From NCBI GenBank assembly GCA_025210805.1, contig JAOAQX010000023.1:124001-188000 (forward strand): a stretch of 64,000 bases of DNA. Direction: 5' to 3'. This document shows, piece by piece, positions 10,890 through 15,416 of the stretch. This stretch comes from Flavobacteriales bacterium (GTDB lineage Bacteria > Bacteroidota > Bacteroidia > Flavobacteriales > CAJXXR01). The notes beneath the pieces are model-generated. The model ran no database searches, had not been told where the DNA came from, and saw only the letters and a list, made by a program, of their open reading frames with translations. Every line of letters starts with the position of its first letter. The stretch's first letter is position 1. A program made the translations under genes and the position numbers.

Positions 10890-13325
10890 TTATAAATACT
10901 GAGGATCAACATCTACAGAAATCAAAATATTTCTATAATCTTTATGTTTACCAAAGCGTTCTATCACCTTTGAAATGAATCGTTTTGTCTTAACCAAATT
11001 TTTGTTTCTTGGTAGTTGAATAATCATTTGTTCTTGATAATAATTATTCAGTTTTTCAATATGTGCAGGAAAGGGTCCTATGAGATACTTTTGTGAAATC
11101 TTTGCCGAAAGTGTATCTTTAAATAAACGTGTTCCATCTTCCAAAATTTTTGGATGTTTATGGCGAAAAAGAATTCCGATCATTCTGGTGTATGGAGGAA
11201 GACTATATTTTTTTCTGTCTAAAAGAAATTTGTTGTGTAAAAAAGTGATTTCTTGATTTTCCTGGAGCATTTTATTCACAGGATGCTTGGGTTGATAAGT
11301 CTGTAAAATCATTAAAGAATCTGGTGATTGACTTTGCAACCTCTTCCCTACTGATTGAATAGTTTGAATAGCTCTTTCTTCCCCTCTAAAATCTGGATAG
11401 TGCAACATATCATCCATTGAAACAACAGCAAACAATGCGGTGTTTGATAAATCTACACCCTTGGAAATCATTTTAGTCCCAATCAAAATATCGATTTCGC
11501 CATTGTCATAACGATCAATAAATTGATTGAGTTTATTTTTTCCTTTTAAGGTGTCTTTATCAAGTCTAACAATAACCGATTTATCAAAAATCCCTTTAAG
11601 TTCCTCATAAATCCTTTCGGTACCATAGCCCTTAACCTGCATATCAGGTTTTTCACATTTTGCACAATAGAACGAAGGGCGGGTACTATAACCACACTGA
11701 TGACAACGAAGGCTGTATTCTCTTTTATGAAATGTGAGATGTACGCTACAGCGAACACAGCTAGGTGTATAGTCACAAGACTGGCATTCCATTTTACTGG
11801 CGTATCCTCGTCTATCTTTGTAAATAAGTACTTGTTTTTTGTTTACCAATGCTTCATCTATCTCATAAATTAGATTTTTTGAAAGGTGTTGCACCATTCC
11901 TTGGTGCTGTTTTTCATGATGTACATCTACCAATTTGATGTGAAGATTTGTTTGCTTTTTTTCAAATTTGAGGACTTCCACCATTTTTTTCTCAATAAGA
12001 TAGTAGGTTTCTACACTAGGAACAATGGCAGACATGAGCAACTGACAATCATACATTTTCATGAGAACAAACGCCATATCTTTAGCATTATAAAGCGGTT
12101 GATTGAGATGTTGTTTGTAAAGTAAATCTGATGAAGAATCCACGATAATTAGTCCCAAATTATCAAAAGGAAGCATAATCCCTTCTTTGGCAGATACAAT
12201 TACTTTGGCTTTTCTATTTTCATGATGATAAACCTTACGCCAAGTATCTACTCTTTCATGATCAGAAAGGCGGGCGTTATAAACCAATACTTGATCTTCA
12301 AAAAAATGTTGTAGAAAGGCATAATACTGTGGAAACAGTAGGATTTCGGGTATGAGTAAAAGAACATCTTTATCCTCTGCTAATTTTTTTTGAATGGCTT
12401 TTTTATAAATCGCTAATTTTTGATAGAAATCTTGCTCATAGTAAAATACGGCTTGATTTTTATCTTCCCAATCCCAATGATTGATTTTGTTTTCAGCTTC
12501 TTGATACTTATTTGCAAAATCCCTTTCAATAGTTTCAAAAAACACTTTTCTTTCAATTTTTTCTTCAAAAATCATTACAAAATGCTTTTTCTGCAAGGCT
12601 TTTGCCGAGAATTTTGACAATCCATTCTCTACAAAGATATCTTTGAATTCTGCGGTATAATCTGGACAAGTCTCTAGAAACTGTAACAATTCCATTTGCT
12701 TTTTTGCCCTTTTAATCGTTTGGTAGTGCTTTTCTTTTTCCCTTAAAAAAGTATCCGTAATTCTTATCTTTTTTATGGTTTTGTATCGATATTTTTCTTC
12801 AAAGAATTTCTCAAGAAGAATCATATCTTTTTTCACCATCCTACTCACCAAAGTATTGGGATTTTTTCGATGTGGTAAAATAGCCTTTACTTCTTGAATT
12901 TTAAGAGAATCTTGAAGCTCTAGAGCATCCAAAAGCAATAATTCATCATCCGAAATTTTGATATTTTCCTTAGAAAAATTCGGATTATAATAAAGCATTG
13001 TTTCACTCTTTAGGGCAAAAGCCTTTGGAAGCGCATAGCGCATGACCACTCCTGTGCTTACCATATAATAATCGGCCATCCATTTCCAAAAAGCAAACTG
13101 TTTGGGATAGATAATAGGATCGTTTTCAGGAATATCTACAATATCCTTTATTAGATCATAAGCAGGTATTTCTTCCAATATTTCTTCAACTATGGCAAAA
13201 GTAAGTTTGTTTTTAAACGGAATAGTTACCCGAATCCCAAACTGGATTTTCTCTCGAAATTCCTCAGGAACATGGTAGCTAAAAGCTGTTCCAAATATTT
13301 CTGGCAACCAAACATTTACATACAT
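10890..13325 (-). CDS. priA: PriA-like primosomal protein N' with degenerate ATPase motifs
   Basis: An 811-residue protein collinear with PriA: an N-terminal DNA-binding domain (about 1-100), a winged-helix region, helicase lobes and a C-terminal domain. The eight zinc cysteines are intact (C514, C517, C523, C526, C541, C544, C554, C557). The ATPase motifs are not. The Walker A region, GVTSSGKTE in relatives, reads YYEQDFYQKLAIY (295-307). The DEEH box reads DSSS (396-399). GSATPS reads SAIVPS (432-437). QVSGRAGR reads QSVGKRLQ (657-664). The frame is open for its whole length and domain order is kept, so it is a conserved protein rather than a decayed gene. It probably loads replication restart factors without unwinding DNA; helicase activity is not expected. 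Confidence 0.88.
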   Translation of the reverse strand: MYVNVWLPEIFGTAFSYHVPEEFREKIQFGIRVTIPFKNKLTFAIVEEILEEIPAYDLIKDIVDIPENDPIIYPKQFAFWKWMADYYMVSTGVVMRYALPKAFALKSETMLYYNPNFSKENIKISDDELLLLDALELQDSLKIQEVKAILPHRKNPNTLVSRMVKKDMILLEKFFEEKYRYKTIKKIRITDTFLREKEKHYQTIKRAKKQMELLQFLETCPDYTAEFKDIFVENGLSKFSAKALQKKHFVMIFEEKIERKVFFETIERDFANKYQEAENKINHWDWEDKNQAVFYYEQDFYQKLAIYKKAIQKKLAEDKDVLLLIPEILLFPQYYAFLQHFFEDQVLVYNARLSDHERVDTWRKVYHHENRKAKVIVSAKEGIMLPFDNLGLIIVDSSSDLLYKQHLNQPLYNAKDMAFVLMKMYDCQLLMSAIVPSVETYYLIEKKMVEVLKFEKKQTNLHIKLVDVHHEKQHQGMVQHLSKNLIYEIDEALVNKKQVLIYKDRRGYASKMECQSCDYTPSCVRCSVHLTFHKREYSLRCHQCGYSTRPSFYCAKCEKPDMQVKGYGTERIYEELKGIFDKSVIVRLDKDTLKGKNKLNQFIDRYDNGEIDILIGTKMISKGVDLSNTALFAVVSMDDMLHYPDFRGEERAIQTIQSVGKRLQSQSPDSLMILQTYQPKHPVNKMLQENQEITFLHNKFLLDRKKYSLPPYTRMIGILFRHKHPKILEDGTRLFKDTLSAKISQKYLIGPFPAHIEKLNNYYQEQMIIQLPRNKNLVKTKRFISKVIERFGKHKDYRNILISVDVDPQYL

Positions 13326-13482: not shown

Positions 13483-13992
13483 TTAGAAAAAATCGGCAAT
13501 ATCTGGTGTATAATCATCATCTTCTTCCTCTTTTTCCTCTTGGTAACGTTCTTCTTTATACTTAGTACCCGTATTAGCTAGTAAAAAACTTTCGGGATCA
13601 TAAATATCAGAAGGTGCAGTATCAGGAAGCATCCCGTATTCTTCAACGATAGTAGGTTGCAAAAGTTTTTGTTCTACCTCATAAGCATTCAAAAATTCGA
13701 TCTGAAAATTCCATTCGGTATCTATATTTTCATATAAGGCTCTATCTCCATCTTTGTATATGAGTTCATTGATTTTCATATCAAGATAGGCATCTAAATC
13801 GTATTGTTCTACACGTTCCCAGTTTTCATTACAAAGCGAAAACACAACCTCTAAACTTCCTTCAATTCCAAATGCATTCAGGATGGTTTGGTGTACATCT
13901 TCTAAGGAAGTAAAAGGATCGAAAGCAATGTCTTTAAAAACATCAATATCCTCATTTTGATAAATAACTCTTAAAATATAAGCTTGTATCAT
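13483..13992 (-). CDS. IS1096-passenger TnpR / pRiA4b ORF-3 family protein
   Basis: A 169-residue protein of the PRiA4_ORF3 (PF07929) family, recognisable from MIQAYILRVIYQNEDIDVFK, FTSLEDVHQTILNAFG and the acidic C-terminus (EEKEEEDDD). The name comes from an insertion-sequence passenger gene, but in Bacteroidota this family is mostly chromosomal and of unknown function. There is no transposase nearby. The start overlaps the cca stop by 4 bp (ATGA), so it is translated with cca. Confidence 0.8.
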   Translation of the reverse strand: MIQAYILRVIYQNEDIDVFKDIAFDPFTSLEDVHQTILNAFGIEGSLEVVFSLCNENWERVEQYDLDAYLDMKINELIYKDGDRALYENIDTEWNFQIEFLNAYEVEQKLLQPTIVEEYGMLPDTAPSDIYDPESFLLANTGTKYKEERYQEEKEEEDDDYTPDIADFF

Positions 13993-15416
13993 GATTGTTG
14001 TTTTAATCCAAGTTCCACTCCTATCTTGAGCATTAAATTCTTTGCTTCTTGGTAGTCATTGGTAATATCTCCTTCCAAAATTGCCTCGCGAATCCTTGTT
14101 TTGATAATTCCTATTTCTCTACCTTGCCCTAAACCAAAGGTTTTCATAATCTCATGACCATCAATAGGTGGCTGCCAATTTCTAATTTGATCTCTTTCCT
14201 CTACATCTTTTAGTTTTTCTCTGATAAGGCGATAATTATCACGATATTTTTTGGATTTATACTCATTTTTTGTGGTAATATCCGCTTCACAAAGAATCAG
14301 TAAAGATTCAAGATCTTCTCCTGCGTCAAACAAAAGTCTTCGAATGGCTGAGTCTGTTACAACTTCTTGTGCCAAAACAATGGGACGAAGATGAAGTTTA
14401 ACTAATTTTTTCACCATTTTCATGGAGTCATTTAGTGGTAATTTTAATCTTCTAAATAGTTTTGGAACCATTTTAGAACCTAAAAATTCATGACCATGGA
14501 ACGTCCAGCCAACTTTTTTGTCAAATCTTTTGGTGGGAGGTTTTGCAATATCATGCATTATTGCAGCCCAACGCAACCATAAATCATCACTTTCTTTACA
14601 GACATTATCAAGAACCTCGAGCGTATGATAAAAATTGTCTTTATGTCCTCTTCCATCACGAATTTCAACACCTTTGAGTGCAATAAACTCTGGAAAAAAC
14701 TCTTTTAAAAGCCCCGTTTTTTCCATCAGTTTAAAACCTAAAGAAGCTCTATCAGATAAGATCATTTTGTTTACTTCTGTAATGACTCTTTCTTGGGAAA
14801 TAATGGGTAAACGATTGGCTACTTTCCCTATAGCTTGAAAACAAGAATCTTCTATTTGAAAACCAAGTTGACAGGCAAATCTAATAGCTCTCATCATCCT
14901 CAATGGATCATCAGAAAAAGTGATTTCGGGTTCTAAAGGTGTTCTTATGATCCCATTTTCAAGATCTTTTAGACCATCAAAGGGATCAACCAAAGTTCCG
15001 AAGTCTGATTCATTGAGTGAAATTGCCAATGCATTTATGGTGAAATCTCTACGTTTTTGATCGTCTTCTAAAGTCCCATCTTCTACAATGGGTTTACGAG
15101 AATCAGATCGGTATGATTCTTTTCTTGCTCCCACAAATTCATATTCCACATCGTGGTACTTAAACATCGCAGTACCGAAGTTCTTAAAATAGTTTACTTC
15201 TATTTTGGAATCCAAATTTTCGGCTACTTTTAAGGCAAGGTCAATCCCAGATCCTTTACAAACGATATCGATATCTTTTGGATTTTCTTTTCCTAAAAGT
15301 AAATCACGGACAAATCCGCCGATTACATAAGTGGGGTAACCGAGATTTTTTGCCGTATCTTTTATTTGCTCAAAAACACGCAAATTGAGTGCTTCTGCAT
15401 AGTTTTTTTTCATCAT
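13989..15416 (-). CDS. cca: CCA tRNA nucleotidyltransferase (poly(A) polymerase family, HD domain)
   Basis: A 475-residue class II nucleotidyltransferase with the catalytic head GGFVRDLLLGKENPKDIDIV (33-52), the RRDFTINALA motif and DPLRMMRAIRFACQLGF, followed by an HD domain (HTLEVLDN, WAAIMHDIAKP) and a C-terminal tail. It adds or repairs the 3' CCA end of tRNA; the HD domain is found in the long form. It is joined to the next gene by a 4 bp overlap and abuts the DUF493 gene upstream (15416/15417). Confidence 0.94.
   Translation of the reverse strand: MMKKNYAEALNLRVFEQIKDTAKNLGYPTYVIGGFVRDLLLGKENPKDIDIVCKGSGIDLALKVAENLDSKIEVNYFKNFGTAMFKYHDVEYEFVGARKESYRSDSRKPIVEDGTLEDDQKRRDFTINALAISLNESDFGTLVDPFDGLKDLENGIIRTPLEPEITFSDDPLRMMRAIRFACQLGFQIEDSCFQAIGKVANRLPIISQERVITEVNKMILSDRASLGFKLMEKTGLLKEFFPEFIALKGVEIRDGRGHKDNFYHTLEVLDNVCKESDDLWLRWAAIMHDIAKPPTKRFDKKVGWTFHGHEFLGSKMVPKLFRRLKLPLNDSMKMVKKLVKLHLRPIVLAQEVVTDSAIRRLLFDAGEDLESLLILCEADITTKNEYKSKKYRDNYRLIREKLKDVEERDQIRNWQPPIDGHEIMKTFGLGQGREIGIIKTRIREAILEGDITNDYQEAKNLMLKIGVELGLKQQS

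Follow-up and report, generated by a model that had tools for sequence, protein, structure and literature searches.

The stretch of DNA analysed here (64 000 nucleotides; the window) carries a priA gene whose product is best read as the true PriA of its genome turned pseudohelicase, that is, an ATP-independent fork-binding platform that would help to reload DnaB by protein contacts (probability about 0.77). The case bears on the question of why nearly all bacteria keep the PriA helicase though E. coli restarts replication without it.

Identification and domain composition

The open reading frame starts with ATG and encodes 811 amino acids without internal stops. It was identified as PriA by a full-length match to TIGR00595 (406.7 bits against a cut-off of 230.35), and solved PriA sequences were matched with an E value of 5.7e-68. 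Pfam placed the 3'-DNA-binding domain (PF17764), the zinc ribbon (PF18319) and the C-terminal domain (PF18074) above cut-off; DEAD, ResIII and Helicase_C gave no Pfam match in the window protein, whereas all three were detected in three of three intact Bacteroidia PriAs. The protein thus has the family-model match, both terminal domains and the eight-cysteine region that mark a PriA and lacks superfamily 2 motifs I, II, III and VI; it is classed from these features as a PriA orthologue by descent and not a PriA helicase. With degenerate Walker A and B sequences in an otherwise complete PriA, it also shares a feature of the Deinococcus radiodurans type of pseudohelicase. An AlphaFold model built from a seven-row alignment had a mean pLDDT of 64, too weak for active-site geometry; with this low-confidence model as the query, Foldseek ranked PriA structures first. 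The features are as follows.

10890–13325, minus strand: priA, predicted to be ATPase-dead, sole PriA of the genome (open reading frame, family model, Pfam, alignment)
13014–13325, minus strand: 3'-DNA-binding domain, residues 1–104, kept (PF17764, E value 5.8e-19; 17 of 22 conserved positions)
12540–13013, minus strand: winged-helix/linker region, residues 105–262, approximate boundaries (six of seven conserved positions kept)
12411–12446, minus strand: former motif I (Walker A), residues 294–305, FYYEQDFYQKLA replacing LLHGVTSSGKTE (alignment)
12129–12143, minus strand: former motif II (Walker B), residues 395–399, VDSSS replacing VDEEH (alignment)
12015–12032, minus strand: former motif III, residues 432–437, SAIVPS replacing GSATPS (alignment)
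11655–11786, minus strand: cysteine-rich zinc region, residues 514–557, eight of eight cysteines kept (PF18319, E value 3.6e-9; alignment)
11331–11354, minus strand: former motif VI (arginine finger), residues 658–665, SVGKRLQS replacing QVAGRAGR (alignment)
10902–11195, minus strand: PriA C-terminal domain, residues 711–808, kept (PF18074, E value 3.3e-14; ten of 12 conserved positions)

None of the neighbours of priA in the window was common to the priA flanks of 20 relatives. Next to the gene lies a small pRiA4b ORF-3-like protein (PF07929, just under cut-off) with a frame that runs into the end of cca (window positions 13483–15416, minus strand), an arrangement that was not seen near priA in these 20 relatives.

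State of the ATP site

The window protein was compared by alignment with 29 PriAs from its own order and then with 40 relatives; the motifs were intact in all 40 relatives first aligned. Motif I has changed from GVTSSGKT to EQDFYQKL (residues 297–304) and motif II from DEEH to DSSS (residues 396–399), motifs III and VI are replaced as listed, motif IV reads DRRG against NRRG and motif V reads GTKM..KGVDL against GTQM..KGLDF. The P-loop has lost all of its glycines and its threonine, DEEH has lost both glutamates, the arginine finger is likewise missing, and the ATP site is destroyed. Both alignments bear out the original prediction that Walker A, Walker B, the TPS motif and the arginine-finger motif are changed; its wider statement that all ATPase motifs are lost holds for motifs I, II, III and VI but not for every residue in them, as the motif I lysine (K303), the first aspartate of motif II (D396) and the first arginine of motif VI (R662) survive. 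Displacement of the motifs, or their concealment by a frameshift, was ruled out: the motif I segment aligns in register and no intact motif I was found in any of the three coding-strand frames. The alignment against PriAs of the order, which had been proposed as a check, thus showed motifs that are replaced rather than shifted.

Retention was scored at positions conserved in at least 90% of the 40 relatives. In the window protein the 3'-DNA-binding domain keeps 77% of these, the winged-helix/linker region 86% (only seven positions), the zinc region 81% and the C-terminal domain 83%. The figure falls to 44% for helicase lobe 1 and 61% for lobe 2, and is 50% for the segment immediately preceding the zinc region. 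The relatives keep 83–100% overall when tested in the same way, and because most of them keep 93–100% in lobe 1 (lowest 78%) the loss there is not attributable to chance; by this measure the relaxation is aimed at the motor. All eight zinc cysteines (514, 517, 523, 526, 541, 544, 554 and 557) are kept, and the prediction that they and the N- and C-terminal domains are intact in an uninterrupted frame was confirmed by the alignment, Pfam and the 811-residue frame.

RecG of the same genome served as a control. Its motor is intact (GDVGSGKT, DEQH) and it is mostly 48–59% identical to the RecGs of relatives (44–46% against reduced 0.6-Mb genomes), whereas the window PriA is 28–34% identical to the PriAs of the same relatives, which have a median identity of 45% among themselves. 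As judged from this comparison, the acceleration is specific to PriA. Fast evolution of the whole genome was ruled out, RecG being normal.

Copy number and partners

The genome is 99.91% complete and contains one PriA. A second, normal PriA was ruled out by a genome-wide search with TIGR00595, which gave only three other matches, all weak, partial and to other helicases (RecG on contig C7, UvrB on C18 and a 1124-residue frame on C1 that is probably Mfd). To look for a complete second copy had been proposed as a check, and the single-PriA reading stands. DciA is encoded in the genome, as is a single SSB. PriA, RecG and others usually dock on the tip of an acidic SSB tail that ends in PF; the sole SSB here (L072:1459–1884, contig C25) ends in ...YKESDESPL and has no such tail.

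Motor-dead PriAs elsewhere in the class

TIGR00595 was searched against 396 genomes from the order and 296 class-wide genomes that are at least 95% complete, two sets with a slight overlap; the lowest-scoring hits and the genomes that gave none were inspected. Many of the low scores came from genes cut by contig ends or from intact but divergent PriAs. Three further motor-dead lineages were found outside the order of the window, namely G437 with G581 (genus g150, family f58), G411 (f32) and G448 (f61), the codes f32, f58 and f61 not saying whether these groups belong to one order. Together with the window this gives four lineages and five genomes in Bacteroidia, a minimum because a high-scoring variant, such as a single change of the lysine, would escape the survey. 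In the f58 PriAs motif I reads DL-GNNRI or DL-GMKRI, motif VI QLIYDFDL or HIIYELDI and motif V KLLH, while the DEE of motif II stays; in G411 and G448 nearly every motif is lost. The eight zinc cysteines are kept in all of these proteins, and no other PriA was seen in the four genomes. A natural PriA without its motifs, which the original prediction had called striking, is not a singular case: the D. radiodurans pseudohelicase has been known since 2015, and the class holds three more lineages.

Two further genes were observed in the survey. Genome G310 carries a divergent PriA (contig C5, L084) with altered yet recognisable motifs (AVPGAGKT, DESH, GSATTR, GRLGR), which may represent a less advanced step of such relaxation. 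In the one-contig genome G465 a priA with intact motifs I and II (C1:796636–798085; L090, L093) is split into two overlapping frames by either a frameshift or a sequencing error.

In the gene tree, which has long branches, the f58 pair clusters with an intact PriA of f17 (SH-aLRT 96), apart from the window protein; a forced grouping of the window protein with f58 was not rejected (p-AU 0.276). Identity of the window PriA is 28% with the f58 pair and reaches 33% with intact PriAs. Since each dead lineage is closer in sequence to intact PriAs than to other dead ones, f58 stands beside the intact f17 sequence and the replacement residues differ between lineages, a single origin of the dead PriAs is disfavoured and separate losses of the motor are likely. 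The closest sequences found to the window PriA are Bacteroidia PriAs, which suggests that its loss was also separate from that in Deinococcus-Thermus. Even odds are given to the broader proposition that the motor was lost repeatedly and independently, at least four times in Bacteroidia besides Deinococcus-Thermus, the fork-binding and zinc parts being retained in each case; the ATP-free platform would then be the part of restart that selection maintains universally, with the helicase as an accessory. Because the same kind of loss is seen in three other branches of the class, the motor seems to be the half that PriA can do without.

The f58 pair, two congeneric species, allowed selection on a dead motor to be measured. 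Their PriAs are 66% identical (dN 0.24, dS 1.55), giving a dN/dS of about 0.16, which is approximate as dS is near saturation; pN/pS is lowest for the zinc region, at 0.11, against 0.30–0.35 elsewhere. Motor-dead PriA in f58 is held by purifying selection that is strongest at the zinc site. A relative of the window species close enough for dN/dS on the window gene was not found, and purifying selection on this gene is inferred by analogy with the f58 pair.

Functional interpretation

Abandoned forks and D-loops would be recognised by the 3'-DNA-binding domain, the winged helix and the C-terminal domain, with the dead lobes as a frame in contact with the DNA. DnaB would then be recruited through the zinc region, conceivably with DciA as its partner, without unwinding of the lagging arm. 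Where that arm is duplex, a different remodeller would have to act, for example the intact RecG. In E. coli, restart by PriA–PriB in vivo is independent of the ATPase, ATPase-inactive PriA loads DnaB in vitro, and the zinc region docks PriB and is needed for reloading of DnaB (PMC10175261), in agreement with the earlier statement that E. coli ATPase mutants retain restart. Loss of the motor may even remove a hazard, since in cells that lack RecG and RuvAB joint molecules can be destroyed through unwinding by PriA. With no second PriA and no shifted motifs, the evidence best supports the original proposal that an ATPase-dead PriA acts through protein contacts; loading of the replication machinery is the predicted outcome.

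It is unlikely that the window gene is instead a restart gene on its way out, in which loss of the motor came first, slow decay of the remainder follows and the lineage will eventually be left without PriA. Such a course would fit the high overall divergence of the protein (28–34% identity) and the distribution of PriA in related genomes. The sister-genus genome G001 (83% complete) yielded no PriA; synteny with the window breaks before priA, and the gene may have been lost there or may lie in the unassembled part. Nine genomes of family f7 in the same order (G007, G020, G031, G040, G049, G057, G065, G072 and G080; 0.8–1.5 Mb) yielded none with either the family model or the 3'-DNA-binding domain, and RecG was found in all six of them that were searched for it; PriA has probably been truly lost in these nine, while one further genome of the family (G088, 5% contamination) has a normal PriA. 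Yet cca, a neighbour of priA in the window, was likewise not found in G001, so that PriA may be merely unassembled there, the dead PriA of f58 is under clear purifying selection, and the window gene keeps its 811 codons open and 77–86% of conserved positions outside the lobes. Simulated unconstrained drift of 0.02 substitutions per site gave a mean of 3.4 stops and left 1.7% of frames open.

Less probable still is a repurposed protein that no longer loads DnaB and whose fork binding serves fork protection or the retention of SSB or repair proteins. The fast divergence could be read in this way, and the SSB terminus described above means that partner contacts may have changed; but the zinc region is among the best-kept parts of the window PriA and is under the tightest constraint in the f58 pair, and a replacement restart factor was not identified. 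Least probable is a nucleotide-sensing PriA in which K303 and D396 bind ATP without hydrolysis and binding switches the conformation: these two residues are kept amid changed neighbours, as are K404, Q405, P410, Y412, D416 and A418 in the aromatic-rich loop region, and with R662 they may allow residual nucleotide binding, but the remainder of the site described above is gone and lone survivors are expected by chance at 44% retention in lobe 1.

Natural motor-dead PriAs, each the sole PriA found in its genome, amount to a comparative experiment on what selection keeps, above all the zinc region, and offer proteins for studying ATP-free loading of DnaB in DciA-using bacteria.

Comparison with known systems

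Canonical Bacteroidota PriAs, with about 28–34% identity, have the domain order and zinc site in common with the window PriA; unlike it, they have intact motifs and detectable DEAD and Helicase_C domains. The PRK14873 models of actinobacterial PriA, which are annotated as lacking recognisable helicase domains, were weakly matched by the window protein and are a possible lead. The E. coli ATPase mutants (K230R, which is priA300, and K230A) likewise have a dead motor and retain restart and DnaB loading, but they are laboratory point changes in an otherwise intact motor with PriB, DnaT and DnaC as partners, whereas the window PriA represents a natural, long-diverged loss in a genome with DciA.

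In the literature searched no PriA pseudohelicase was described outside Deinococcus; the kind is already known from there, and its occurrence in Bacteroidota, the more complete loss and the recurrence appear to be unreported. PriA of D. radiodurans has no ATPase and does not unwind, binds forks with near-normal affinity (Kd near 100 nM) and contacts DnaB, and motifs I and II of the Deinococcus-Thermus PriAs conform poorly to the consensus (PMC4504706). The window PriA resembles this pseudohelicase in being a natural PriA with a degenerate ATP site, the comparison being between a protein known from sequence alone and the published description of an assayed protein from another phylum. The two differ in the manner of the loss: in Deinococcus-Thermus the lysine of GKT has become arginine (PMC4504706), whereas in the window PriA that lysine is kept although motifs I, II, III and VI as such have given way to other sequences.
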